DNA of 64,000 bases from NCBI GenBank assembly GCA_016712865.1, contig JADJQH010000008.1, positions 558,001 through 622,000 of the forward strand, written 5' to 3'. Shown here piece after piece: positions 6,660 through 62,467 of the stretch (its first letter is position 1; the number at the start of each line of letters is the position of its first letter). The DNA is from Dokdonella sp. (GTDB lineage Bacteria > Pseudomonadota > Gammaproteobacteria > Xanthomonadales > Rhodanobacteraceae). The translations under genes and the position numbers were made by a program. The notes under the pieces were generated by a model, which had not been told where the DNA came from, did no database searches, and was given only the letters and a program-made list of their open reading frames with translations.

Positions 6660-6821
6660 GCTGAAAGACCGGGAATCGGGAATCGGGAATCGGGAATCGG
6701 TGAAAAGCCGCGTTCTCGCCGCGCGTTGCGTTTCCGCTTCGCCCATTCCCCATTCTCCATTCCCCATTCTCGGCTCTCAATCCATTCCCCATTCCCGATT
6801 CCCGATTCCCGGCTTTCCAGC
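6660..6821 (+). repeat. Long inverted-repeat element between gspE and gspF
   Basis: The left arm at 6660-6690 and right arm at 6791-6821 match as inverted repeats at 28 of 31 positions. Both are built of GGGAATC/GATTCCC heptamers and bounded by GCTG...CAGC. The roughly 100-base core holds further CATTCCC/CATTCTC units. The right arm ends two bases before the gspF ATG, so gspF lacks a normal Shine-Dalgarno sequence. Confidence 0.85.
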
Positions 6822-8478: not shown

Positions 8479-8677
8479 GGGCCGGGAATCGAGAATAGAG
8501 AATTGGGAATCGTGAGAAGCGACGTGAGTCATCCTCTTGCTTCGTCGCTTGCGTGTTGCCGCAGGATCGAAACCAGCGTCGAGAGGACATTGCACCCGCT
8601 TTTCCCAACTCCCGATTCCCGATTTCCGACTCCCCGACTTTCCCCCATTCCCCATTCTCCATTCCCCATTCCCAGCC
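8479..8677 (+). repeat. GGGAATC/GATTCCC element between gspG and gspH
   Basis: The left arm (8479-8512) and right arm (8644-8677) are imperfect inverted repeats of GGGAAT-type heptamers, flanking a different core. The element belongs to the same family as the one at 6660-6821. It is read through as the leader of GspH. Confidence 0.8.
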
Positions 8678-9123
8678 GTCCAAGCGGCTTCACCATGATC
8701 GAGATGATCGTGGTGGTGGTGATGATCGGCATCATTGCCAGCGTGGTGGCTTTTTCGTTCACCCAGAGCCTTTCAGGGGCGCGCATCCAGGCCGCAAGCC
8801 GCGATCTGGTGGCGGCGCTCCGCTACACGCGCGGGCAGGCCATCGTGAAGGGCGAGCAAAAGGTCCTCACTCTGGACCTCGAGCACAACACCTATGAGGC
8901 GCCCGGCAAGTCCAGCAAGGAACTTCCCAAGGACATGAAGCTGCGACTGACCACGGCGCAGCAGGAACTGGTCAGCGACACCTCCGGCGGCATCCGCTTC
9001 TTCCCCGACGGCAGTTCCACCGGAGGCAACATTGCCGTCGTGCTCGGTGAGCGCGAATGGCGGATCAATGTGGGTTGGTTGACCGGGGAAATCACCCTGG
9101 ACGAGACGGAATCGAAGCGGTGA
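8524..9123 (+). CDS. gspH: Minor pseudopilin GspH with a repeat-derived leader
   Basis: Minor pseudopilin near the pseudopilus tip. The mature part is clear: prepilin site SG-FTMIEM, a hydrophobic helix (VVVVMIGIIASVVAF), then LRYTRGQAIVKGEQ and FFPDGSSTGG typical of the GspH/FimT fold. The start is uncertain. No ATG exists in frame upstream of the cleavage site; only GTG (8512, 8524) and TTG (8476, 8590) codons are available, all inside a repeat element. GTG 8524 is chosen for the GAG at a suitable distance, giving a 55-residue leader rich in Pro, Ser and Phe (PTPDSRFPTP, SPIPHSPFPIP) instead of the usual short basic one. The leader is presumably removed by the prepilin peptidase, which may be why it is tolerated. 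Confidence 0.88.
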   Translation: MSHPLASSLACCRRIETSVERTLHPLFPTPDSRFPTPRLSPIPHSPFPIPSRPSGFTMIEMIVVVVMIGIIASVVAFSFTQSLSGARIQAASRDLVAALRYTRGQAIVKGEQKVLTLDLEHNTYEAPGKSSKELPKDMKLRLTTAQQELVSDTSGGIRFFPDGSSTGGNIAVVLGEREWRINVGWLTGEITLDETESKR

Positions 9124-49638: not shown

Positions 49639-50224
49639 GTCCGGAAATCTGTGCCGCACCACTGCGGGTGCGCAGCAACTGTGACACGACAAGGTGCAGG
49701 CCGGTCGCCAGCAGCACGTACATCACGCTGGTGCGCAGGTATCCGAAGTACCAGTGGCCCATGTTCTCGACCCAGCCGGAGACGCTGCGCGTCGCCACCT
49801 GGCTGCTGAGCCAGTAGAAGCTGCCATTGGAAATCACGAAACACACGCTCGCGGAAACCAGCAGGCACGTTGCAAGAAGGCCAAGGCCCTGGGCTGCACT
49901 GCCGGTGTGGAACTTGCGCAGGAATGCACCGCCCGCCCACATGGCTCCGTAGGCGGCCAAAAGGAACCAGTACGCCGGCGAAACGCAGTAATGCTGCCAG
50001 AAATTCAGGCCTTGGCCGGTGATGACCAACAGATCGACCAGCACGGCGATGGCAATGAGCAGGGCAAACGCCCAGCGCCAGGAACCACGAAGGTAGAAAC
50101 CGGCAACGAAGAACACGGCCCAGCTCGCATCCGGAATCGCCGCAAAGTGGTTGATGCGGGTGCCGGCCATGACCAGGGCAAGGATGAGGAAAATGAAAGC
50201 GCGTTGCGTGGCAGAAAGCGTCAT
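49631..50224 (-). CDS. BtuM-like cobalamin transporter (solitary ECF S-component)
   Basis: Inner-membrane protein of 197 aa with about six membrane segments. The N-terminal region AGTRINHFAAIPDASWAVFF and the Cys at position 80 (FWQHYCVSP) agree with BtuM, in which Cys80 ligates the cobalt of cobalamin (Thiobacillus denitrificans protein, from memory). Overlap with the adenosyltransferase gene gives independent support. No ECF ATPase or T-component gene is nearby, as expected for solitary BtuM proteins. ATG 50224 is the likely start, since it precedes the conserved N-terminus. Other membrane families remain possible. Confidence 0.72.
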   Translation of the reverse strand: MTLSATQRAFIFLILALVMAGTRINHFAAIPDASWAVFFVAGFYLRGSWRWAFALLIAIAVLVDLLVITGQGLNFWQHYCVSPAYWFLLAAYGAMWAGGAFLRKFHTGSAAQGLGLLATCLLVSASVCFVISNGSFYWLSSQVATRSVSGWVENMGHWYFGYLRTSVMYVLLATGLHLVVSQLLRTRSGAAQISGRG

Positions 50225-50305
50225 GGTCTGGATTCCGGGGAGAGCTGCAAGCCGTATCTTAGCCGATGCCGAAGTCCGGGGCTCGACCGCGCCCGCATGC
50301 ACCGT

Positions 50306-50911
50306 TCACTCCGGTTCGAAACGCGTGGTGTTCATGTGGCGCACCTCGAACTGTCCGCGCGCATGGCGCAGGCGCGAGACGCGCGCCGGTTCGATGCCGA
50401 TGCTCTGGGCGCGACCCGGAGACAGGCCCAGCGCGTGGCACAGCAAGGCGCGAATGGATCCGGCATGGGCGACGGCCAGAACGCAATCATCCTGTGCCGT
50501 GGAACTCAGCAGCGCGGCAAGCCAGGCGCCGGTGCGCCGGATCACGTCGGCAAAACTTTCCCCCTCTGGCGCCTGCTGGATCACCCAGTTGTCGCGCCAA
50601 TGCCGGTGCAGGTCGGCATCGCTGGCGCTGATGTCGATCCAGCTGCGGCCTTCCCAGCGGCCAAAGTCCATCTCGCGCAAGCGTGCATCGGCGAGTGGTT
50701 CAATGGCAAAGCGCGCGGCGAATACCTGCGCCGTCTGCTGGGCGCAGCGCAAATCGCTGGAAAACAGGAAGCGCGGTGCCGCCGCGCTCCAGCCCGCCGC
50801 AAGTCGCTGCACGCCGGTGAATCCATCGCTGGACAAGGCAAGATCCGCCTGCCCGATGCAAACCCCAGGAGCGGAATCGGTGGCGCCGTGGCAGACCAGG
50901 ATCAGGTCCAT
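50306..50911 (-). CDS. Histidine phosphatase, possible alpha-ribazole phosphatase (CobC-like)
   Basis: Phosphoglycerate-mutase-fold protein (201 aa). The motif that normally reads RHG(E/A)T is LVCHGATDSAPG here, so the phosphate-binding Arg is replaced by Cys while the phospho-acceptor His remains. Other marks are present: SSDLRCAQQTAQVFA, REMDFGRWEGRSW with the acid residue, and LAVAHAGSIRALL with the second His. CobC in cobalamin nucleotide-loop assembly is suggested only by the neighbouring BtuM-like and PduO genes. The substitution could lower activity or change substrate. Confidence 0.75.
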   Translation of the reverse strand: MDLILVCHGATDSAPGVCIGQADLALSSDGFTGVQRLAAGWSAAAPRFLFSSDLRCAQQTAQVFAARFAIEPLADARLREMDFGRWEGRSWIDISASDADLHRHWRDNWVIQQAPEGESFADVIRRTGAWLAALLSSTAQDDCVLAVAHAGSIRALLCHALGLSPGRAQSIGIEPARVSRLRHARGQFEVRHMNTTRFEPE

Positions 50912-51086
50912 GCGTGCAAGGCCCGTTTCGGATGGATGCAGCCTAGCATTGCCATGACCCGGTTGGCTTCAATGAATGCGGCTGAACCCTTGACGCTTGC
51001 ACGATCGCATCGGAATGAATCATGCAGGATCGTCGCTTGCTCAGATGCTGCGTCGGAATTCGGGCTGGGCTTGGTAGCATCAGCGA

Positions 51087-53204
51087 ATGAACATGCAACC
51101 CCCGAGCGTGCATTACCGGTTCCTGCAATGGAGCTACGAGCCCGAGCGCCGGCTGCTGCAGTCAGCGGAATGCGAGATACGCCTGAAACCGCTCCTCGAC
51201 CGCTTGCTGAGACATTTTCTCGACGAACCGGGCAAGGTGCTGGGGCGGGACTACCTCATCGAACAGGTGTGGACGCGCAGTCAAGTCAACGACGAAGTGC
51301 TTTCGCGGGCGATTGCCGAATTGCGCGCGCTGCTGGGTGATGATGCGCGTGATCCCCGCTTCATTGAAACCCTCTCGAAAGGCGGTTATCGCTGGATAGC
51401 TCCCGCGTCGCGGGATGCCGCATCGCAACAGCCACAAGCGGTGGGTGAATCCAAATCTCCGGCTCGCGGCTCTTTCTCATCGCATCGGCGACGAGTCGCA
51501 TTTGCGCTGTTGCTCCTGACCCTGGTTCCACTCGGCCTCTGGCTCCATGGCCAGCGAAGTGGCGACGTGCAACGCTCGAACGAAGCCCATGTCCTTGGCT
51601 TGCTGGATGCACGGCCATTGGCGGCGAATGCTGAACTCGATCTGGATGCCCGATTCACTCCCGCGGGTCAGGTCATCTACGTCCGCTCGGAGCGTGAATC
51701 CGGGGCCAGCGAACTGGTTATCGTGGATCCGAAAAGCCGCGCAGAGCGCATCCTGTGGCAAGACCCGCTTCCTTTGCGCAATCCGGCTGCTTCCCTGGAC
51801 GGGCGTGAGGTCGCCGTGATTCGCCGAAGCAAATCAGGATGCGAGCTCTGGAGTGTCGTGTTGGTGGATGCTCGCCGCCGCCAATTGGCCGCATGCGCCA
51901 ATGAAGCGGAGGGCGTCGAATGGGTGGATGGCGACTCCGGCATCATTTTCACCGGGGCAGCCATCGATGCGGCACACGCCCCCGGTCTGGTGAGGCTGGA
52001 TCTGAAGAGCGGCCAATCGCGTGCACTCACCACTCCCGAGCTGAGCGAAGGTGCGCATGTCGATCCGCGGCTCTCGGCCGATGCCAGGCGATTGGCGTAT
52101 GCCAGCAAGTTTGGTGGAGAGGGCCAGCTCTGGTTGAGCGATTGGCCCGACATGCACGGTCGGCACTCCCTTCTGAAGCGCGCGGAGCCGATTTACGGAC
52201 ACGCCTTCGAACCCGATGGCAAAGCCCTGTGGGTGGCCGGTGACCTGACCCGATATCGTGCCTTGCATCGCCTCGTTCCGGGCAGCGCGCCGGTGCTGAT
52301 TGGAGGACGAGGTGCGCTTTCCATTGACCTGGCCCAGGACGGCAGCGCAGTCTGGTCGGACGCTCGCCACGACGGCGACATCGAGCTCCGACGGTCAGGC
52401 CGGGACGATTGGGAAGCGATCGCCCGCACCAATCGCTACGAGTCGCAACCCGAGTTCTCCTCGGATGGGAAGCACATTGCGCTGGTCAGCAACAGGGATG
52501 GCAGCGAATCCATTGTTGTCTACAACATGGATAGTGGGACCGTGCTTCCGCTGGCGCTGGAGCCGAGGTTTCGATGGGTGCGGCCAACCTGGTCGGCACG
52601 AGACCAATCCCTGATCCTCACCGCGTATGAAGACGTGGAAACACGGCTTTATCGTTATCGGCTCGACCGTGGCGTGCTGGAAACAGTGCCGAATGTCGAA
52701 CCGGGAGCATTTCATGGAGTGGAACTCGCGGATCGGCTGTTCTTCCTGAGCGGACACCGCACCCGGCAGAGTGCATTGATGCAATTGCGCCCAGGCAACG
52801 CGCAAGCCGAGCAATTGCCGTTTGGCATCGTACAGGCCTATCGCGCCTCCACCCGCTGGCTGGCTTGGCGCAGGGAAGGATCGCGGGCATTGCATTTCGC
52901 ACCCTTGCCCTCCCTGAGCCCGATGCTCGAGGTTGCGCGCGTCGACGAAGGCGCAGTCGAAGCGTTCGCCTTGGCCGGGGACTCACTTTATTTTGTTGAC
53001 AAGGGTGCGCTGTGGAAGAAGGAGTTGCCTGATGGCCAAGCGGTCGAGGTGGCGGTCAGGTCTGTTCCTGGAGGCAGCAGTCCGGGACTGGCTGCGTCCG
53101 CGGCCGGTGATCTGGCCGTGGTCCGGCTGACGGACTTGAGCATTGACCTCATGATTGCCGGGCCGCCCGCCGACGCACGACGCACGCGATCATCCGAGCC
53201 ATGA
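51087..53204 (+). CDS. CadC-like membrane regulator with TolB-type sensor domain
   Basis: Transcription regulator (705 aa) anchored in the inner membrane. Residues about 12-105 form an OmpR/PhoB-type winged helix (LKPLLDRLLRHFLDEPGKVL, YLIEQVWTR, LSRAIAELRALLGDD, RFIETLSKGGYRW). A membrane segment lies near 132-152 (VAFALLLLTLVPLGLWLHG), and a periplasmic domain of about 540 residues contains WD40/TolB-like propeller blades (PEFSSDGKHIALVSNRDGS). It would sense a periplasmic signal and act on DNA directly, as ToxR and CadC do. It is convergent with the secreted-protein gene. Targets are unknown. Confidence 0.88.
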   Translation: MNMQPPSVHYRFLQWSYEPERRLLQSAECEIRLKPLLDRLLRHFLDEPGKVLGRDYLIEQVWTRSQVNDEVLSRAIAELRALLGDDARDPRFIETLSKGGYRWIAPASRDAASQQPQAVGESKSPARGSFSSHRRRVAFALLLLTLVPLGLWLHGQRSGDVQRSNEAHVLGLLDARPLAANAELDLDARFTPAGQVIYVRSERESGASELVIVDPKSRAERILWQDPLPLRNPAASLDGREVAVIRRSKSGCELWSVVLVDARRRQLAACANEAEGVEWVDGDSGIIFTGAAIDAAHAPGLVRLDLKSGQSRALTTPELSEGAHVDPRLSADARRLAYASKFGGEGQLWLSDWPDMHGRHSLLKRAEPIYGHAFEPDGKALWVAGDLTRYRALHRLVPGSAPVLIGGRGALSIDLAQDGSAVWSDARHDGDIELRRSGRDDWEAIARTNRYESQPEFSSDGKHIALVSNRDGSESIVVYNMDSGTVLPLALEPRFRWVRPTWSARDQSLILTAYEDVETRLYRYRLDRGVLETVPNVEPGAFHGVELADRLFFLSGHRTRQSALMQLRPGNAQAEQLPFGIVQAYRASTRWLAWRREGSRALHFAPLPSLSPMLEVARVDEGAVEAFALAGDSLYFVDKGALWKKELPDGQAVEVAVRSVPGGSSPGLAASAAGDLAVVRLTDLSIDLMIAGPPADARRTRSSEP

Positions 53205-53244
53205 TGCCTGCGGATTTTCTCCCCCATTTGACTTGGCATTTCGC

Positions 53245-53274
53245 TGCGGGCATCGCAAGCAGGCGATGCCCGCA
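53245..53274. terminator. Hairpin between convergent genes
   Basis: TGCGGGCATCGC (53245-53256) and GCGATGCCCGCA (53263-53274) are perfect 12-base inverted repeats with a six-base loop. There is no T-run, but the position between two convergent genes suggests a two-way transcription end. Confidence 0.65.
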
Positions 53275-53292
53275 ACGTCGGGTTTGGCCAGT

Positions 53293-54615
53293 TCAGGGCG
53301 CGGCGCCGGGACAGGTGGTCCCGGCAATCTGGGTCAGGCGGGTAATTGCCATCGACCCGCTGCCATAGCCCGGAACCGTCGAGTTCCAGCTTGCCGTCCC
53401 GTTGTTGCAGTCGCTGAAGGTGAAAGTCAACGTTCCCCACGCAACCGCATTGATGTCATCGTGGTTGAAGTTTGGCGGAAATCGCGCGCCGCTGGTGATC
53501 GCCGCCGGCAAGGTGACCGTGTTGGATGTGGGGTTGTAGGTGCCCTGGCCATAGATCCAGCTCTGCGTGTTGCCATCCGGCGCATAGGCAAACCAGTAGA
53601 CCAACATGACCGGCAGGCCGGATGCCGCATCAATGGCCGTGGTCGCCTCGATCTGGAAGCCGATGCCACTGGTATCGGGGTTGTACCAGTTGCCGCTGGT
53701 GTGGCCGCCCAGTTGCACGGTGGGTGTTTCGTCGAGGGCGGGATTGGGAATGAGCGCGACAAACGTGCCACCCACGATTCCACCCGCCGCGCCCTCGGCG
53801 ACCGTGGCAAGCAGGGCGCCGGAGTTTCGGTCGTAGCGACGTACCTTGTTGCCGGACAGCACGAGCAAACTGCCATCCCGATCCAATGCCATGCCGGTGG
53901 GCTGGTTCAAACCGCTGACCAGGGTGCCGACCAGCGTTCCATTGTTGGCATTGAACCGATAAATCGCCCCGCTGCCTTCGCCACCCACCAGGATGGTGGC
54001 ACCCTCGTCGACGATTCCGCGCGTGCGGCGCAGGCCGCCGCTGCCGGCTGCGATGAATTGGCCTTCAGCTTGTCCGGTGACCAGGTTGACCCGGGCGACA
54101 CTGTTTGAACCGTATCCCGGCACGAAGAGATTGCCGGAGGCGCTCACCATCATGCCGTTGTCGGCACCACGCAATCCGCTGTTCGAGGCGAGTACCACGC
54201 GCACCTGTTGGCCACTGGCCGGATCCAGTTCAACAACAGTGTTGGACTGGTAGCCGGCAACGTAGACCTGGTTCTGTGGACCGAAGGCGATACCGGTCGG
54301 ATCAACGTTGCCGGCCAACTGGGCAAACACATCGACAAACTCGAAATTGGTCGAATGGCGATAGCGCTGGATCTGGTCGTTGCCCTCGCTGACCACGTAA
54401 ATCATGTCATCGGCCGGGTTGTAGCGAACAGCCTGTGCGCCCCGAATGCGCCCGGCGCTCTCCAGCTGGCGTACATAGGCGCCATTGCAGGCGTCATAGA
54501 TGGCGACGTTGTCGGAGAAGTATCCGCTCACCAAGAGCTGATGGCTGCATGGCTGGGCCAAGGCAGTGGATCCTGCCGCGCAAAGCAGCAGGGCGATGAA
54601 CATCTTGAATGACAT
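53293..54615 (-). CDS. Secreted beta-propeller protein
   Basis: Exported protein (440 aa) with a signal peptide (KMFIALLLCAAGSTALA). Residues about 25-290 are NHL/YncE-like propeller repeats (VSGYFSDNVAIYDACNGAYV, TGIAFGPQNQVYVAGYQSNT, LFVPGYGSNSVARVNLVTG, TGMALDRDGSLLVLSGNKVR). The C-terminal 135 residues form a separate beta domain, GGHTSGNWYNPDTSGIGFQ...WFAYAPDG...WIYGQGTY, a type I have seen in many exported proteins of this order. No CTERM sorting signal is present. ATG 54615 follows AGGAG. Binding partner and role are unknown. Confidence 0.85.
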   Translation of the reverse strand: MSFKMFIALLLCAAGSTALAQPCSHQLLVSGYFSDNVAIYDACNGAYVRQLESAGRIRGAQAVRYNPADDMIYVVSEGNDQIQRYRHSTNFEFVDVFAQLAGNVDPTGIAFGPQNQVYVAGYQSNTVVELDPASGQQVRVVLASNSGLRGADNGMMVSASGNLFVPGYGSNSVARVNLVTGQAEGQFIAAGSGGLRRTRGIVDEGATILVGGEGSGAIYRFNANNGTLVGTLVSGLNQPTGMALDRDGSLLVLSGNKVRRYDRNSGALLATVAEGAAGGIVGGTFVALIPNPALDETPTVQLGGHTSGNWYNPDTSGIGFQIEATTAIDAASGLPVMLVYWFAYAPDGNTQSWIYGQGTYNPTSNTVTLPAAITSGARFPPNFNHDDINAVAWGTLTFTFSDCNNGTASWNSTVPGYGSGSMAITRLTQIAGTTCPGAAP

Positions 54616-54853
54616 GCTGTGGTCTCCTGGGTTGGGGGAGCCGCAGCGTGCGGGTAGCAGCCGGTGGAGTCCTTCTCGCCGGTTCCTTTCCACTTCCTTT
54701 TTTTCTCCCCATCGAATTTCCTGCGGGGGATTGGTCCTGGCTCGATCAAGGGAACTGGCTGGGCCTTGCGGGGCGCGCCTGGGCACGCATGGATGCGCAT
54801 GGCCAGCAGGTGGGCGCGCTATGCTTTGGCCGGAACCATCCGGAATCCTGAGC

Positions 54854-55540
54854 ATGACCGCCACAGCCGCACGCAACTGGATTCGTCTTGCCCGACAGCA
54901 TCCATCGGCCTTGCTGCTGGCCGTGCAGTTGTTGGGCGTGTTGCTGTATCCGGCCATGGAAGACACTCAGGCAGGTCGCGCAATGTTCGGCGCATTTGGC
55001 ATCCTGGTGCTGTCGCTGGCGCTCTGGGTGGTCAACCGCAGTCCGCTGGTCAATTGGGTGGCGTGGGTGTTGGCCCTGCCATCAGTGACCTTGTCGATCT
55101 TCGCAGCCCTCAGCGGACGTGCCGATCTGGTCGCCGTCATCCATTTGCTGGAAGGCATGCTTTACCTGTATGCGGCCTTCGGCCTGATTGCCTACATGCT
55201 GCGCGATCACCGGGTCAGCCTCGATGAGCTGTTTGCCGCCGGTGCCACCTTCACCCTGCTGGCCTGGGCCTTCGCCTATTCGTATTCGGTATGCCAGCAA
55301 TGGTTTCCGGGCAGTTTCATCGCAGCCGTAGAACCCGACGCGCCGCGGACCTGGATGGAATTGCTGTTTCTGAGCTTCAGTACGCTGTCCGGCGTGGGCC
55401 TGAGCGACATCATCCCGATCCGGCCGCAGGCGCGCGCATTGGTCATGCTCGAACAGTTCGCCGGGGTCATGTACATCGCGCTGGTGGTTTCGCGCCTGAT
55501 TGGCCTTACCGTACTGCGTGCGCCACCGCGGCGCGAGTGA
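54854..55540 (+). CDS. Two-TM ion-channel-like membrane protein
   Basis: Membrane protein (228 aa). Four to five N-terminal hydrophobic segments precede an ion-channel-2-like pore: outer helix (TFTLLAWAFAYSYSVC), pore loop WMELLFLSFSTLSGVGLSDIIP and inner helix LVMLEQFAGVMYIALVVSRL. In potassium channels the filter reads TVGYGD or TLGYGD; here it is GVGLSD, so Tyr and the last Gly are lost. It is thus a channel homologue of uncertain selectivity. ATG 54854 is chosen because upstream in-frame codons read into the divergent promoter region. Confidence 0.8.
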   Translation: MTATAARNWIRLARQHPSALLLAVQLLGVLLYPAMEDTQAGRAMFGAFGILVLSLALWVVNRSPLVNWVAWVLALPSVTLSIFAALSGRADLVAVIHLLEGMLYLYAAFGLIAYMLRDHRVSLDELFAAGATFTLLAWAFAYSYSVCQQWFPGSFIAAVEPDAPRTWMELLFLSFSTLSGVGLSDIIPIRPQARALVMLEQFAGVMYIALVVSRLIGLTVLRAPPRRE

Positions 55541-55617
55541 GTCGGTGAGCGGTGGTGGAATGCAGGAGCGTCGGGTTGAAACCACCAACGCCGAAAGGGC
55601 ACGCCCGCCCCCGTAAA

Positions 55618-55663
55618 GGGGGGGGTGGGGGGGGGGGGGGGGGGGGTTGGCCCCCCCCCCCCC
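55618..55663. repeat. Poly-G / poly-C inverted tract
   Basis: Eight G (55618-55625), T, then 20 G (55627-55646), TTGG and 13 C (55651-55663). It lies within a larger GGGTTGAAACC-type palindromic region. It could fold as a hairpin or G-quadruplex. Read or assembly error in tract length is likely. Confidence 0.7.
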
Positions 55664-55751
55664 TCGGGGCGGCGGGTTGAAACCCGACCCACACAAGCAC
55701 GTTCAGCAAGGCGAATCAAAACGCCATGGTCGGCTAAGAGGCCGGCAATGC

Positions 55752-56447
55752 GATGAGCGGAGCAAGCTCCGCTCTACCGAAGACGTGGAATCTGTCGAGT
55801 TCTTGTAGAGCCGAGCTTGCTCGGCTGGGATTCTATGGCTTTTGTAGAGCCGAGCTTGCTCGGCTGCGTTGCCGCAGCGGCCGTTGCAGTCGATGAGCGG
55901 AGCAAGCTCCGCTCTACCGAAGACGTGGAATCTGTCGAGTTCTTGTAGAGCCGAGCTTGCTCGGCTGGGTTGCCGCAGCGGCCGTTGCAGTCGATGAGCG
56001 GAGCAAGCTCCGCTCTACCGAAGACGTGGAATCTGTCGAGTTCTTGTAGAGCCGAGCTTGCTCGGCTGCGTTGCCGCAGCGGCCGTTGCAGTCGATGAGC
56101 GGAGCAAGCTCCGCTCTACCGAAGACGTGGAATCTGTCGAGTTCTTGTAGAGCCGAGCTTGCTCGGCTGGATCGGGGCTGCTCTGAGAGCCGAGCTTGCT
56201 CGGCTGCGTTGCCGCAGCGGCCGTTGCAGTCGATGAGCGGAGCAAGCTCCGCTCTACCGAAGACGTGGAATCTGTCGAGTTCTTGTAGAGCCGAGCTTGC
56301 TCGGCTGGGATTCTATGGCTTTTGTAGAGCCGAGCTTGCTCGGCTGCGTTGCCGCAGCGGCCGTTGCAGTCGATGAGCGGAGCAAGCTCCGCTCTACCGA
56401 AGACTTGGAATCTGTCGAGTTTTTGTAGAGCCGAGCTTGCTCGGCTG
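55752..56447 (+). repeat. Modular palindromic tandem array (101/140-bp units)
   Basis: Six units begin with GATGAGCGGAGCAAGCTCC at 55752, 55892, 55993, 56094, 56232 and 56372, so spacings are 140, 101, 101, 138 and 140. Each unit has a hairpin GAGCGGAGCAAGCTCCGCTC, a linker, a second hairpin AGCCGAGCTTGCTCGGCT and the spacer GTTGCCGCAGCGGCCGTTGC. The long units carry one extra 37-39-base module with another copy of the second hairpin. Units 1 and 5 appear identical in sequence. Confidence 0.9.
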
Positions 56448-56472
56448 GATTTCCGATGGTGGCCCTTGCAGC

Positions 56473-59433
56473 TCAAAGCGCGTCGAAGTTGAGGATTGCG
56501 TTGGTCACCAGCGGATAGCTGCCCAGGGTCGCCGCGCGCCACATCGGGTTGATGGCGAACAGCAGCACGTGGCCCTTGCCCAGGCGGGCATCGACCAGCG
56601 CGGCCTTTTGCGCCAGCGCACCCGCGTTGTCGATCAGGCCAGAAACCAGCAACTCGTCGGCATCGGCAAACCGCAGCAAGGCGCGCGGGCGCTGGTCGGC
56701 GGGGATCAGCAGCACGTTGTTGCGTTCCTGTTCGACGTTGAGTGGCACCGCCTGCCAGGGTTTTGCCGAAGGCAATTCCGGCGGCACACCATAGCCGGCC
56801 ACCTCCGGCAGGTCGGTGTCATCGGCGCCACCCCGACCCGTAGGACGCTTGTGCTCGTGCGCGGTCGGGATGTTGCCGTCACCTCGCGTCTGGTTGCTCA
56901 CCTTGAACGCCATGCCATCGGCTGTGTACACGGTGAAGGGTTCGGTATAGCCCCAGGTCACCGGACTCGCGCTTTCCGTGTTCTGCGCGCGCACCAGCGT
57001 GCCAACGACGCGCAGGTCGCCCTTGCTGGCGATGCTCACGCCGGGCGCGAGACCGACGTCGATGGCAAATTTCGCGGTGTCCTCGGAGGTGATCAGGACG
57101 CCGCCGTCGCGCACGAAGCGCTTGAGGTTGTCGACGCCGTTGCCACCAAGGCCGGGACGAATATCATCGGTGCTGTCGATGCGACCAAGGTTGGGCGTGA
57201 GCGCGGTGGTCTTCCACGGCATCGCGTTGCCGTACATCGGAAGTCCATCGACCAGCAGGCGCGTGTCGCCGTAGCCGATGGGTCCGAACAGAATCACATC
57301 GAAACGCTTGCGCAAGTCGCCCATGCGCGCCACATCCTGGGTGCTGATGTAGTCGAACGGAATGCCGAGTTCATCCAGCGCCATGCGCCACCAACCTTCG
57401 GTCTGCGTGCTGATCCAGCTGTGCAGGATGGCCACGCGTGGAAGGCCCAGCTTGCGCGTGGCCACATCGGGCAGGCTGTCCACGGCCATGCTGGCGAGCC
57501 CGAGTCGGCCGCTCACTGCATCGAACCCGGCATTGGCACGACGCACGATCAGGGTGCCCGCGGCAAACGTGCGTGTTCCGACCTCGAAGGGCTCGGTGGC
57601 GATTTCCATCGCGGTGTCCTTGGCCGCGAAACGCAGCGAAGCCAGTTCCGCCGCAGCCGGATTGGAAATGACGCGCAGCGCGCCGCTACCTTCCACGTTG
57701 ACGGCAGGCAGGGGCCAGGTCACGGCCTGCATGGGCGCCTTCAACAACGCGACATCGGTGACGCGCACGACATCCAGGCCAAACTGATCGCCCAGCGACC
57801 AGCCGGTATCGTCGTAGGGATGCTTCTGCGGGTCCTCCGGCGACCAGTACTGGCGATCAAGCAGCACGTCAGCGATGCGCGAATAGGGTTGGTCCATGCG
57901 CACCACGTAACTCCCGGCCGGAAAGGTGCGCGTGGTCGGCGCCTTGTCCTTGCCGCCTTTCCCGTCGGCATCAGCCTCATCCGCCTGCGCCGCCTTGGGC
58001 AACTGAACGGTGAGCGCGGCATCCAGGCGATGCACCTCCGCCTTCTGCCGATGCAGCACTTCGATCAGCTTGCGCTGCGCACTTGAGCGCGGATCGTCGG
58101 CACTCAACACGTAGCCGGCCGGTCCTGAATCGGCCGCCTTGGTCACCGAGCGTTTCGACTTCAGCCAGAAGTTGCGCAGGAAGGCCTGGCTGTTGCCGGC
58201 AAAGTAGTCAAGCGCGGTCAGCATCGCACTCTGCGAATAATTATTGTTGTTTCGCTGCGACCAGAGCACCTTGGCGCGCGGCGGATTCGGCCGATACCAG
58301 GTGCGTTCGTACTCCTCGGGCTCGAGGATGCGTTCCACGGTGTCGGCGCCGGCGTTGCCGAAGGTTTCGTACAGGCGGCTGATGCCGTTGTGGGTGGCGG
58401 CGATGAACATGAGATACCCGGGGCTCCAGGTATCGAACTCGCCGTGGGTGAACACGCCCGGCAGTCCGAGCCGGGTCAGGGTGTCGACATTGTTCCAGCC
58501 CAGTTGCTGCCACTCGCCGACCAGCAGCGGATCGATCCAGCTGTTGTAAGGACCGGCACCGACCGTGTTGTCATAGAGGAACGGCACCGACTCGTGCATG
58601 TCATGCAGCACCTGTGCGTGCCAGCCAGTGTAGGTGTCGATGACATTGCGGGTGAGCGCCAGCGAGGCAAGCATGGCGTCGCGGTTGTTGTCGTGGGCAA
58701 CGTAGTGGCCCCAGTAGAGCAGGCGCGGATACTGCGCGTCCGGATGGGCGCGATGCCAGTCGTAGAGATCGACCATGCGTTCCCATCCGTCGGTTTCGAC
58801 CACCGGCGTGATCAGGGTGATCATCTTCGAGCGAATCGCGCGGATGTAGGGTGCTTCGTCCACGGTCAATCGATAGGCCAGTTCCATCAGCGAACTGGGG
58901 TTTCCGGTTTCGGTCGAGTGGATCGCGCCGGTGATGTAGTAGACCGGAACCGATTGCGTGATCAGTTCCTGGGCACGTGAGTCATCCAGCCCGATCAGGC
59001 GCGGATCGGCAAGCTGGGCGAGGCGTTGCCGGTTGTTTTCCAGATCGGCCAGCAAGGCTTCATCCGCAATCGCTGCGGCGATCATCTCGCGGCCTTCTTC
59101 CGAGGTTCCGATGGAAAACACCTTGACCCGCGGGCTGCTCGCGGCCAGCGAACGGAAGTAGTCGTGGATCGTCTTCAGGCGCGGCAGCATGTTGGGCGCG
59201 CCGGAGACATCGCCCATGGCCTTGGCCGGTGTCGGCACCGTGTCCGAAGCGGGCAAATAGCGCGTCAGTTGGGTGTTGAACGCCGGATCGGTGGTGTATT
59301 TCGCAATCTGCTCGCCATACCAGGCGTCCATCTTCTGGTTTGGATCAGCGGCGAAATGTGTTTCCAGCGGCGAGGCGGCGAACGACGGAAACGCGCTGAG
59401 CAGCGCGGCAAGCGCAATGAGCATGCGTGGCAT
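56473..59433 (-). CDS. Large exported M14-family zinc carboxypeptidase
   Basis: Exported metallopeptidase of 986 aa. The signal peptide (PRMLIALAALLSAFPSFAA) precedes an M14 catalytic domain at about 60-380, with the zinc motif HSTE in GAIHSTETGNPSSLMEL, a downstream active-site region ending HGEFDTWSPGYL and the segment LHDMHESVPFLYDN. The C-terminal 600 residues include a glutamine-amidotransferase-like stretch (FDVILFGPIGYGDTRLLVDG, GGVLITSEDTAKFA, GKGHVLLFAINPMWR), as found in long M14 proteins. ATG 59433 is preferred because it starts at the signal peptide. It lies next to the palindrome array and is divergent from ubiH. Confidence 0.88.
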   Translation of the reverse strand: MPRMLIALAALLSAFPSFAASPLETHFAADPNQKMDAWYGEQIAKYTTDPAFNTQLTRYLPASDTVPTPAKAMGDVSGAPNMLPRLKTIHDYFRSLAASSPRVKVFSIGTSEEGREMIAAAIADEALLADLENNRQRLAQLADPRLIGLDDSRAQELITQSVPVYYITGAIHSTETGNPSSLMELAYRLTVDEAPYIRAIRSKMITLITPVVETDGWERMVDLYDWHRAHPDAQYPRLLYWGHYVAHDNNRDAMLASLALTRNVIDTYTGWHAQVLHDMHESVPFLYDNTVGAGPYNSWIDPLLVGEWQQLGWNNVDTLTRLGLPGVFTHGEFDTWSPGYLMFIAATHNGISRLYETFGNAGADTVERILEPEEYERTWYRPNPPRAKVLWSQRNNNNYSQSAMLTALDYFAGNSQAFLRNFWLKSKRSVTKAADSGPAGYVLSADDPRSSAQRKLIEVLHRQKAEVHRLDAALTVQLPKAAQADEADADGKGGKDKAPTTRTFPAGSYVVRMDQPYSRIADVLLDRQYWSPEDPQKHPYDDTGWSLGDQFGLDVVRVTDVALLKAPMQAVTWPLPAVNVEGSGALRVISNPAAAELASLRFAAKDTAMEIATEPFEVGTRTFAAGTLIVRRANAGFDAVSGRLGLASMAVDSLPDVATRKLGLPRVAILHSWISTQTEGWWRMALDELGIPFDYISTQDVARMGDLRKRFDVILFGPIGYGDTRLLVDGLPMYGNAMPWKTTALTPNLGRIDSTDDIRPGLGGNGVDNLKRFVRDGGVLITSEDTAKFAIDVGLAPGVSIASKGDLRVVGTLVRAQNTESASPVTWGYTEPFTVYTADGMAFKVSNQTRGDGNIPTAHEHKRPTGRGGADDTDLPEVAGYGVPPELPSAKPWQAVPLNVEQERNNVLLIPADQRPRALLRFADADELLVSGLIDNAGALAQKAALVDARLGKGHVLLFAINPMWRAATLGSYPLVTNAILNFDAL

Positions 59434-59547
59434 GGATTTCCCCAAGGGCAAGGTGGCAGACCTGCGTCATTGTGCCAGAGCGTTGCCGGCGGGCAGCAGT
59501 GACGATGGTCATTCCGGTCCTCCGCCGCTTGCCCGTATCATGGCCGC

Positions 59548-60762
59548 ATGAGCGCAATGCACGACATCGTGATTGTGGGTGGTGGCTTGGTGGGTTCCAG
59601 CCTGGCCATTGCCCTCGATGGCAGCGGCCTGCGTGTGGCCCTGGTGGAAGCGGCGCTGCCGCAGGTTGCCGCGCAGCCGAGTTACGACGAGCGCAATCTC
59701 GCTTTGGCGCGGGCCAGCATCAATGCCCTGGGCGCGCTGGGCGTGTGGGCAAAGGTGGAACAGGCACCGGCGCCGATCACGCAGATCCACATCAGCCGAC
59801 GCGGTGGTTTCGGATCCGCGCAGCTCAACGCCGCCGAACTTGGCCTTGCGGAATTTGGTGCGGTACTGCCGGCTCGCGAGCTGGGCAATGCCTTGCTGTA
59901 CCGGCTTGAATCCTGCCGTGATCTCGACCGCATCGCTCCGGCGCAACTGATTGCCATCGAAAGCCAGGATGATGCGATCGGTTTGGGCGTGCTCGCCGAT
60001 GGCACGCAGCGGCAGCTGCGCGCGCGCCTGCTGGTGGGTGCGGATGGTACCGAGTCGTTCGTGCGCAACCACTTCGCCATTGGCGCGGATCGATTCGACT
60101 ATGCGCAAAGCGCGCTGGTAACCACGCTCACCTGCGAGCGTGCGCCGGATGGCTGCGCGTTTGAACGCTTTACCGACAGCGGTCCGGTGGCCTTGTTGCC
60201 GTTGGCTGGAAATCGTGCCGGACTGGTGTTGAGCGTGCCGACCGCCGATGCCGCGCGGGTGGCCGAACTGGATGACGATGCATTCATCGCACTCGTGCAC
60301 GAGCGTTTTGGCTACCGCCTGGGCCGCTTCAGCCGACCGGGAAAGCGCAAGCCGTATCCCTTGGCGCGCATGTTGGCATCGGCGTTGACGGCGCCACGCA
60401 TGGTGCTGGTCGGCAATGCCGCGCAGACCGTGCATCCGCTCGGCGCGCAGGGTTTCAACCTGGGCTTGCGTGATGCGCTCAGCCTTTCGGAATTGCTGAT
60501 CGAATCACGGCGCGATGCGGGCGATCCCGGCGCCGCCGATCTGCTGGCGCGCTATGTGGCCAGACGCACGCCGGATCGGCAGGCCACCACCGCGTTCAGT
60601 CATGATCTGGTGCGGCTGACGCGCAATCCGTTTCCGCCATTGCGCTGGCTGGGTTCGCTGGCGCTGGGCGCGCTCGATCATTTGCCGCCGCTCAAGCGGC
60701 GCGTGGCCCTGCGCGGCATGGGATTCCGCGGTGATGTTTCCAGACTGGGCTTGAGTCCATGA
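59548..60762 (+). CDS. ubiH: Ubiquinone biosynthesis FAD hydroxylase UbiH
   Basis: Flavin monooxygenase (404 aa) of the UbiH/VisC group acting on a ring position in ubiquinone synthesis. FAD motifs are present: N-terminal dinucleotide fold DIVIVGGGLVGSSLAIAL, the DG motif LLVGADGTESFVR and the GD-like VLVGNAAQTVHPLGAQGFNLGLRD, where GNAAQ replaces the usual GDAAH as in UbiH. It overlaps the next hydroxylase gene by four bases, so the two ring hydroxylations are co-expressed. Confidence 0.92.
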   Translation: MSAMHDIVIVGGGLVGSSLAIALDGSGLRVALVEAALPQVAAQPSYDERNLALARASINALGALGVWAKVEQAPAPITQIHISRRGGFGSAQLNAAELGLAEFGAVLPARELGNALLYRLESCRDLDRIAPAQLIAIESQDDAIGLGVLADGTQRQLRARLLVGADGTESFVRNHFAIGADRFDYAQSALVTTLTCERAPDGCAFERFTDSGPVALLPLAGNRAGLVLSVPTADAARVAELDDDAFIALVHERFGYRLGRFSRPGKRKPYPLARMLASALTAPRMVLVGNAAQTVHPLGAQGFNLGLRDALSLSELLIESRRDAGDPGAADLLARYVARRTPDRQATTAFSHDLVRLTRNPFPPLRWLGSLALGALDHLPPLKRRVALRGMGFRGDVSRLGLSP

Positions 60763-61958
60763 ACCGACGCGGCGAACACGATGTGGTGGTGGTGGGTGCG
60801 GGCGTGGTCGGCGCGGCGACCGCGCTGGCGCTGCTGCGAGAAGGCTTCGACGTGGCCCTGGTGGAAGCCCGTCCGGCGCCGACCTGGAATGCCGCAGACG
60901 ACGTGGACGCGCGCGTGGTCGCACTGGCGCCGGATGCAGTCGCGCTTCTGGATGGTCTGGGTGTCTGGAAGTCCGTCACGGACGCACGCGCCTGCGCCTA
61001 TTCGCACATGCGAGTCTGGGATGCGCTGGCAGCCGGCGAGCTTTCGTTTGCGGCGGAGGATCGCGGAGAGACCGCGTTGGGCTGGATTGTCGAGAACCGC
61101 TTGCTCCAGCATGTGTTGTGGCAGGCGCTGGTCGAGGCTGGCGCACGCGGAGCAGCGATCCAGTTGCGCGTGCCCGGCGAGGTCACTGCAATCGAGAACG
61201 ATGAGCGTGGCGTGGCAGCTACGCTCGCAGATGGCAGCGTAGTGCGCGCCCGACTGCTGGTGGCGGCGGATGGTGCCACCTCACCCATTCGCACCCAGCT
61301 CGGCATCGCTGTGCGCGAGCACGACTATGGCCAGCGCGCAATCGTTGCCCACGTAGGCATCGAACGTGCACATGAATCCACTGCCTGGCAGCGATTCCAA
61401 CCCGGTGGTCCGCTCGCATTCCTGCCCCTGGTCGACGGTCGTTGCTCGATCGTGTGGTCCTTGCAAGGGAACGAAGCCGAACGGGTATTGGCATTGGGCG
61501 ATGCGGCGTTCTGCGCGGAGCTGGGTTGTGCGCTGGATTTCCGCCTGGGCAACATCACATCGACAACGCGACGCCTGGCGTTTCCCTTGCGCATGCGTCT
61601 GGCCGAACGCTATGTGGTGGGGCGCACGCTGCTGATTGGCGATGCGGGACATGCTGTGCATCCCTTGGCTGGACAGGGCCTCAATCTCGGCTTGCGCGAC
61701 GTGAACAATCTCCGCGGACAGTTGCGTCGCGCCAAGGCACGCGGCATCGATGCGGGTGCCGCACAGGTGTTGCGTCGTTACGAGCGTGAGCGCCGCAGCG
61801 AAAATATCCTGGCCGCCAGCAGCTTCACTTTGATCGAACGCTGCTTCAACTCCGAATCCATCGCCGTGGCGGGATTGCGCGGTTTGGCCCTCGCGGTGGC
61901 GGACAAGGTGACGCCGCTCAAGCACGTGCTGATGGACGCCGCAGCCGGACGCTTGTAA
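60759..61958 (+). CDS. Ubiquinone biosynthesis FAD hydroxylase, UbiI/UbiF-like
   Basis: Second flavin monooxygenase (399 aa) of the same family. Marks are DVVVVGAGVVGAATALAL, LLVAADGATSPIRTQLGI, and TLLIGDAGHAVHPLAGQGLN followed by LGLRDVNNL. It sits in one operon with ubiH, as ubiI does in many Gammaproteobacteria. Which ring carbon it hydroxylates cannot be read from the sequence; UbiI or a broad-range UbiF/UbiM-like enzyme are both possible. Confidence 0.9.
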   Translation: MNRRGEHDVVVVGAGVVGAATALALLREGFDVALVEARPAPTWNAADDVDARVVALAPDAVALLDGLGVWKSVTDARACAYSHMRVWDALAAGELSFAAEDRGETALGWIVENRLLQHVLWQALVEAGARGAAIQLRVPGEVTAIENDERGVAATLADGSVVRARLLVAADGATSPIRTQLGIAVREHDYGQRAIVAHVGIERAHESTAWQRFQPGGPLAFLPLVDGRCSIVWSLQGNEAERVLALGDAAFCAELGCALDFRLGNITSTTRRLAFPLRMRLAERYVVGRTLLIGDAGHAVHPLAGQGLNLGLRDVNNLRGQLRRAKARGIDAGAAQVLRRYERERRSENILAASSFTLIERCFNSESIAVAGLRGLALAVADKVTPLKHVLMDAAAGRL

Positions 61959-61975
61959 CCGCGCAGGTTCCTGGC

Positions 61976-62467
61976 TCAGATCAGATCAAGCAAGTCCGGA
62001 TCGATCTCGCGCAACTGTTCGGCGATTGCTGACGTGGCATCCAGCGTGCTGAAGCCGCGCCATTCGTATCCGGGCGCCACGGTGCAGCCTACCAGCGCGT
62101 AGCTGCCCAGTGGTCGTGCCGCTTGCCAGCAACCGGCGGGCACGACGAACACCGGGGCCGACTCGTGGCTGACTGGGCCAAGCACATGGCGCGAGAGCTG
62201 CTGGTCACGCGGATCAAAGCGCAGCATTTCCAGCGCCTCACCTTCGTACCAATGCCAGATTTCGTCGGCGTCGATGCGATGCCAACGGCTGACCTCGCCT
62301 GCGCACAGCAGGTAGTAGATCGAGGTCGCGGCCAGGCGCTCGCGGCCATCGTCGCCAACGCGCAGCGTGCTGCTGGATTCGTAGATGCGGCGATAGTGAC
62401 CGCCCTCGACGTGGGCATCGAGGCGCAGCAGGCGTTTGAGGTGTTCGGCGCGTTCATTCATGCGCAT
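61976..62467 (-). CDS. Cupin protein, DUF985 family
   Basis: Cupin-fold protein (163 aa). Typical marks are LKRLLRLDAHVEGGHYRRIYESS, ATSIYYLLCAGEVSRWHRIDADEIWHWYEG and YALVGCTVAPGYEWRGFSTLD, which match the DUF985/cupin_5 group (yeast YML079w-like). These proteins bind small ligands; no catalytic role is known for this group. ATG 62467 is chosen; ATG 62461 is two codons later. It lies convergent to the ubi operon and only 17 bases from its end. Confidence 0.9.
   Translation of the reverse strand: MRMNERAEHLKRLLRLDAHVEGGHYRRIYESSSTLRVGDDGRERLAATSIYYLLCAGEVSRWHRIDADEIWHWYEGEALEMLRFDPRDQQLSRHVLGPVSHESAPVFVVPAGCWQAARPLGSYALVGCTVAPGYEWRGFSTLDATSAIAEQLREIDPDLLDLI

Follow-up and report, generated by a model that had tools for sequence, protein, structure and literature searches.

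What kind of element makes up the run of palindromic units that lies between two converging genes of this Dokdonella genome, how did the run arise, and does it act on its neighbors? The window that we analyzed is a 64-kb stretch of a genome of 3.75 Mb in 8 contigs (G000 below). A preliminary description, made from the letters of the window, had proposed an expanding REP array, a nucleoid- or gyrase-binding array, or a strong transcription stop. Our results indicate that the units very probably form a GTAG-type REP array (BIME, or tandem REPIN cluster), founded by heterodimers that a RAYT dispersed and enlarged by local tandem duplication.

RESULTS

Organization of the array and its repeated element

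The array (55756..56446, 691 bases) consists of 15 REPs in 6 units and sits between the stops of an ion-channel gene (+) and an M14-peptidase gene (-). Its units start at 55756, 55896, 55997, 56098, 56236, and 56376, which reproduces the six units and the spacings of 140, 101, 101, 138, and 140 bases of the preliminary description, and TRF finds periods of 101, 138, and 140 at the array. Units 1 and 5, which had looked identical, are the same at 140 of 140 bases. The 37- to 39-base module ascribed to the long form proved to be one more REP on the + strand plus a spacer, the whole module measuring 39 bases in units 1 and 5 and 37 in unit 4, where the surplus REP has lost its GTAG tag and carries 2 mismatches. 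Each unit had also been given two hairpin cores. The hairpins are there, but not as two separate cores: GAGCAAGCTC is the reverse complement of GAGCTTGCTC, so both are a single element in two orientations.

This element, GTAGAGCSGAGCTTGCTCSGCT, has 22 bases, with a GTAG tag, an 8-bp stem, and a TT loop. The array holds 14 exact copies of the pattern GTAGAGC[C/G]GAGC-TT-GCTC[G/C]GCT and 1 degraded copy, and the stem occurs in a C form and a G form that differ by one C/G swap. The features are as follows; the genes were identified by Pfam and the REPs by exact motif match, except REP 10, which was placed by its 15-base spacing and the unit sequence.

54854..55540, + strand, ion channel gene (PF07885), converging on the array; searched from 54857
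55756..55777, - strand, REP 1, G form (GTAGAGCGGAGCTTGCTCCGCT)
55805..55826, + strand, REP 2, C form (GTAGAGCCGAGCTTGCTCGGCT)
55844..55865, + strand, REP 3, C form, surplus module of long unit 1
55896..55917, - strand, REP 4, G form
55945..55966, + strand, REP 5, C form
55997..56018, - strand, REP 6, G form
56046..56067, + strand, REP 7, C form
56098..56119, - strand, REP 8, G form
56147..56168, + strand, REP 9, C form
56184..56205, + strand, REP 10, degraded C form (no GTAG, 2 mismatches), surplus module of long unit 4
56236..56257, - strand, REP 11, G form
56285..56306, + strand, REP 12, C form
56324..56345, + strand, REP 13, C form, surplus module of long unit 5
56376..56397, - strand, REP 14, G form
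56425..56446, + strand, REP 15, C form
56473..59451, - strand, M14 carboxypeptidase-like gene (PF00246), converging on the array

The ATG at 54854 is the start that we chose for the ion channel gene, whose open frame starts further upstream.

We call neighboring REPs HH when their GTAG tags point outward (the term of PMC3733652), TT when the tags point inward, and HT when both have the same orientation. Five HH spacers of 30 bases alternate with six TT spacers of 27 bases. The array thus has the alternating inverted pairs, in tandem with flanking DNA, that define a BIME or tandem REPIN cluster, and 14 of its 15 copies combine a short-loop palindrome with the tag (GTAG or GTGG) of a GTAG REP. 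An Rfam gathering search of 50000-62000 gave no match.

Regularly spaced palindromic repeats might also suggest a CRISPR-like or other spacer-storing array, a reading to which we give virtually no weight, since the spacers repeat inside the array, the repeats alternate in orientation, and the repeat is dispersed genome-wide. A CRISPR array proper has unique spacers and direct repeats; here the spacers are repeated, as the preliminary description had already remarked in setting the array apart from CRISPR, and the repeats are inverted.

Several other repeats and low-complexity tracts were seen in the window. Just upstream of the array, 55618-55663 contains runs of 8 G, 20 G, and then 13 C, which could mark a weakness of sequencing or assembly. 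A portion of a second palindrome, GTCGGGTTGAAACCCGAC, occupies 55670-55690; the full palindrome occurs at 11 places in the genome and is possibly another REP-like family. Tandem arrays of seven-base units, e.g., CCCATTC, lie at 2124-2154, 6670-6810, and 8602-8682.

Copies in the genome and a strand rule

A genome-wide search, one of the checks proposed in the preliminary description, found the high copy number of a GTAG REP, with 273 exact copies (143 + 130). From base composition, 6.6e-8 exact matches would be expected in the 64 kb of the window, which has 14, and 4e-6 in the 3.75 Mb of the genome, which has 273, so that chance is excluded; the pattern read backwards, as a control, had no match in the genome. 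We surveyed the window and 44 other stretches in which REPs had been located. They contain 341 REPs when 3 mismatches at most are allowed, of which 252 are exact (the other 21 of the 273 exact copies lie outside). The longest row has 24 REPs in succession (L146). The REPs are mostly intergenic, with 9 of 330 inside open reading frames in 45 stretches as judged by a crude gene caller.

Within an array, each strand carries one stem form. This strand rule is followed by 280 of the 289 neighboring pairs within 150 bases in G000: HH pairs are of mixed form in 124 of 124 cases and TT pairs in 107 of 110, and HT pairs are of the same form in 49 of 55. Because arrays grow by duplication, REP pairs are not independent and counts by cluster are fairer; these are 39/39 for HH, 33/36 for TT, and 17/22 for HT, and polarity is pure in 43 of the 48 clusters with at least 2 REPs. 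The rule also holds in two other genomes of the genus, in 72 of 72 pairs in G003 (among 100 of its 133 exact copies) and in 64 of 64 in G008 (among 100 of 177). When degenerate copies are counted as well, it is followed by 125 of 132 pairs (25 G003 stretches and one G008 stretch), and all 7 exceptions are HT pairs with degenerate copies.

The exact motif is present in 27 of 398 genomes of the order, the window's own genome counted and G003 and G008 lying outside that draw. Among the matches listed from other genera there are same-form inverted pairs (e.g., in G274, G310, G226, G292, and G365) as well as mixed-form pairs (in G363, G308, and G370). The same-form inverted pairs show that the motif by itself does not impose the strand rule.

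Spacers and probable local amplification

Spacers of 10 to 60 bases resemble each other within a locus (mean identity, HH 0.83 and TT 0.82) and not between loci (HH 0.32 and TT 0.25), which argues that each array arose mainly by local tandem amplification. HH spacers of 19 to 22 bases from 27 loci nevertheless share a positional signal above that of all 5,000 shuffles (4.3 bits when aligned at the left end and 4.7 at the right, where the shuffles reached at most 3.4 and 3.5). Part of the signal stems from small sets of nearly identical spacers. Of the 29 representatives of this length, two, both from L145 and one a duplicate, were dropped, and other lengths were left out. The signal suggests that the founder pairs are, at least in part, of common descent. 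The 30-base HH spacer of the window array lies outside the common length and outside the 27-locus set, so its founder may have been unusual.

The probable cognate RAYT gene

A RAYT is a REP-associated tyrosine transposase, and characterized relatives cleave single-stranded REPs. Looking for such a gene had also been suggested in the preliminary description, and one was found, flanked by REPs of the array's type. The genome has four Y1_Tnp genes, of which one, at G000:C8:839024-839515, is a RAYT: it scores 131 bits against NCBIfam REP_Tyr_transpos (cutoff, 80) and matches the TnpAREP structure 4er8 (E 1.8e-10). Sixteen REPs lie over its two sides, so that the same REP flanks the gene, as is typical of GTAG REPs; the other three Y1_Tnp genes (L031, L033, and L034) have no exact REP in the surveyed stretches. 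The RAYT and its REPs (L032 14-1225, L145) adjoin a gene that resembles gyrA by eye.

Among 10 genomes of the genus, the exact REP occurs in three (G000, G003, and G008). RAYTs 67 to 68% identical to that of G000 occur only in G003 and G008, the next best being 46% identical and one genome having none. The same three genomes thus combine the exact REP with a RAYT at 67% identity or more, and the RAYTs of G003 and G008 likewise have array-type REPs on their flanks.

The G003 RAYT lies among REPs at a site (L198, G003:C61:1800-6800) whose G000 counterpart, L112, has REPs and no RAYT (best tblastn E, 0.13). The right flanks of the two sites are 79% identical over 1,843 bases and the left flanks 75% over 708, the left match consisting of overlapping partial matches, maybe to paralogues. 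The RAYT of G000 lies at another site, and the G003 counterpart of that site is split between contigs at REPs. This suggests relocation or differential loss of the RAYT between G000 and G003, and misassembly at REPs may lie behind the apparent shift; passages of PMC8266576 report no evidence for tnpAREP mobility. The G003 RAYT (L155 1498-1953) also has F where the RAYTs of G000 and G008 have the tyrosine of YIVANP. This tyrosine aligns with that of YIYINP in 4er8 and would by that alignment be the catalytic one; in the Stenotrophomonas maltophilia enzyme, a Y130F mutant is inactive (PMC8266576).

Orthologous arrays and the same gap in relatives

We compared 19 pairs of clusters between G000 and G003 in 17 orthologous regions of fragmented assemblies (200 contigs in G003; G008 has 320). 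L123 entered two comparisons, one with each of the G003 contig ends L191 and L184, and three blastn pairs were left out: L112/L198 (the G003 RAYT site), L138/L181 (a single 157-base match), and L145/L198 (the RAYT gene itself). Polarity is kept in 18 of the 19 comparisons; only a mixed cluster of 3 and 2 REPs departs from it. Copy number is unequal in 13 of the 17 comparisons of whole arrays (e.g., 16 versus 8 and 9 versus 3) and in 15 of 19 when two G003 arrays cut by contig ends are included. The best HH spacer match reaches 0.86 to 1.0 in 9 of the 13 comparisons that have one. The REP array of the preliminary description is thus borne out by the GTAG tag, the 273 copies, the REP-flanked RAYT, the tandem units, and the copy-number differences between orthologous arrays; that it is still expanding is a candidate reading.

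The gap between the two converging genes itself differs among relatives. The M14 protein of the nearest genus genome is 90% identical to that of the window. G004 keeps both genes; the blastn matches to them lie about 165 bases apart with no REP in the gap, and no exact copy of the motif was found anywhere in that genome. In G003, the two genes are on different contigs, the channel gene close to a contig's end and the peptidase gene close to a contig's start, and the first 120 bases of the peptidase contig recur at the end of the channel contig. Neither stretch has a REP at up to 3 mismatches, which indicates that other sequence, and no array, lies between the two genes. In G008, the gap holds 12 REPs with a 108-base unit, a polarity opposite to that of the window array, and unrelated spacers. 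The G008 array is not an inverted copy of the window array, since inverting its spacers does not improve their match (HH 0.32 and TT 0.23 when inverted, HH 0.33 and TT 0.20 when direct). The simplest reading is that the gap was colonized independently in the G000 and G008 lineages; less simply, an older array may have been replaced completely.

Like arrays elsewhere in the genome and in two other genomes also bear on whether the window array is a repeat collapsed or expanded in assembly. The identity of units 1 and 5 and the long G/C homopolymer nearby (55618-55663) would favor that explanation. Against it stand the unequal lengths of the units and the point changes between them, the contig of 1.35 Mb in a genome of 8 contigs, and the like arrays at other sites. 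We consider such an artefact highly improbable, and a pure assembly artefact is unlikely.

Possible effects on the neighboring genes

The array might be kept as a bidirectional 3'-end element, its hairpins stopping exonucleases or polymerases on both strands between the converging genes, a reading that we hold only tentatively. The convergence is supported by Pfam, REP pairs fold stably, and G008 has an array in the same gap. The 49 REP clusters examined also lie mostly at gene 3' ends (20 in convergent, 23 in unidirectional, and 3 in divergent contexts, with 2 unassigned and 1 inside an open reading frame), as called by a crude gene caller that misplaced the left gene of the window and made its array unidirectional despite the Pfam-supported convergence. 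Selective avoidance of promoters would, however, give the same distribution, and neither G004 nor G003 has REPs between the two genes. In unidirectional contexts, array polarity has no clear correspondence with gene direction (14 versus 9 clusters). The strong transcription stop of the preliminary description did not hold up as an intrinsic terminator: no intrinsic-terminator-like site was found on either strand of 55400-56600, where shuffled sequences lead one to expect 1.1. REP hairpins at mRNA 3' ends could instead act posttranscriptionally. If the array has an effect, the likeliest is a modest one on the converging mRNAs at their 3' ends, and it is about as likely to be a neutral by-product.

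By analogy with the BIMEs of Escherichia coli, which have the same architecture of alternating inverted REPs in tandem, the array might bind gyrase or a nucleoid protein; IHF, gyrase, and DNA polymerase I interact with E. coli REPs or BIMEs (cited in PMC3686654). We think this improbable for the window array, as an IHF-type site would lie in the spacers and every locus has spacers of its own.

DISCUSSION

Our results demonstrate that the array is real, well preserved, cleanly organized, and ordinary in kind. Founder pairs of the two REP forms in opposite orientation would have been spread across the genome, the cognate RAYT being the likeliest agent; one pair would have arrived in the gap between the two converging genes and then been duplicated in tandem, together with local spacer DNA, by slippage or by unequal recombination between near-identical REPs. 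We infer mobilization by the RAYT of this genome, the mechanism of duplication, and any effect on the two neighboring genes from sequence.

For Di Nocera et al. (PMC3733652), that heterodimers are preferred "has no obvious explanation"; they also put forward the idea that heterodimers are protected from SbcCD. In folds calculated with DNA parameters, a pair of unlike form is 7.7 to 9.1 kcal/mol less stable than a pair of the same form (for an HH pair with a 21-base spacer, -22.6 versus -31.7), and the best fold of the unlike pair is one long imperfect hairpin and not two separate ones. On these calculations, the lower stability would fit the idea of protection, and the long imperfect hairpin would count against its simple version.

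A broader picture can be put forward with reserve, as a possibility that we would not yet favor. The REP arrays of this lineage would carry a strict strand code, and array polarity, with the C form on one strand and the G form on the other, would outlast the rebuilding of units, spacers, and copy number, maybe because a mismatched pair avoids the long perfect hairpins that are destroyed by repair nucleases. Arrays would colonize a site independently and with either polarity, as G000 and G008 do in the gap studied here, and between species the RAYT would change place among arrays.

The window's own feature is an ordinary REP array, a new instance of a known element type, and any function of it at this site is hypothetical. 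What remains of interest is the strand rule with its conserved polarity, the hints that the RAYT changes place, and the G003 RAYT that lacks the motif tyrosine. Partners that differ by one C/G swap, a rule held in three species with few exceptions, and same-form pairs in other genera make hairpin avoidance testable, and orthologous sites, when compared, show how arrays turn over, with polarity kept and copy number mostly changed.

Tandem REPIN clusters with flanks, adjoining RAYTs, and heterodimers, including those with different stems, are already in print (PMC3116915, PMC3733652, and PMC3686654). Among the 20 papers listed, out of 159, by a full-text literature search, none contains the exact 22-base REP, the core leading to PMC3686654, and the 10 papers listed, out of 31, for neighboring genera include no REP report; the REP may be of a family already listed in PMC3733652.

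Several described systems come close to the array, among them REPs of Stenotrophomonas maltophilia. SM12 (GTAGAGTCGAGCTTGCTCGACT; Nunvar et al. 2013, PMC3686654) shares the GTAG tag, the length, and the TT loop, and its stem is one pair apart, T-A in SM12 and C-G here. SM9 is also a GTAG REP but has another loop (PMC3686654), and what distinguishes the Dokdonella array from both is the splitting of C and G stem forms by strand. REPtron Sm, with a group 3 TnpAREP (Corneloup et al. 2021, PMC8266576), likewise has the GTAG tag, a short perfect 8-bp stem, and a RAYT with adjoining REPs; its loop is GCT (3 bases) and that of the Dokdonella REP, whose pairing with the RAYT is predicted from sequence, is TT (2 bases). 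The REPIN clusters of Pseudomonas fluorescens SBW25 (Bertels and Rainey 2011, PMC3116915) are likewise inverted pairs in tandem with flanks, with a RAYT lying next to clusters of the REP type that goes with it, although the REP sequence is another one and the largest ordered cluster described there has four REPINs and one REP, against up to 24 REPs here. The BIMEs of the GTAG family (Di Nocera et al. 2013, PMC3733652) share alternating inverted REPs, heterodimers, tandem flanked reiteration, and a RAYT gene with the array, and heterodimers with different stems have already been described for GTAG-24 of P. aeruginosa. The partners differ by loop length in enterobacterial GTAG-3 and by two stem positions in P. 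aeruginosa, whereas in Dokdonella they differ by one C/G pair in an 8-bp stem.
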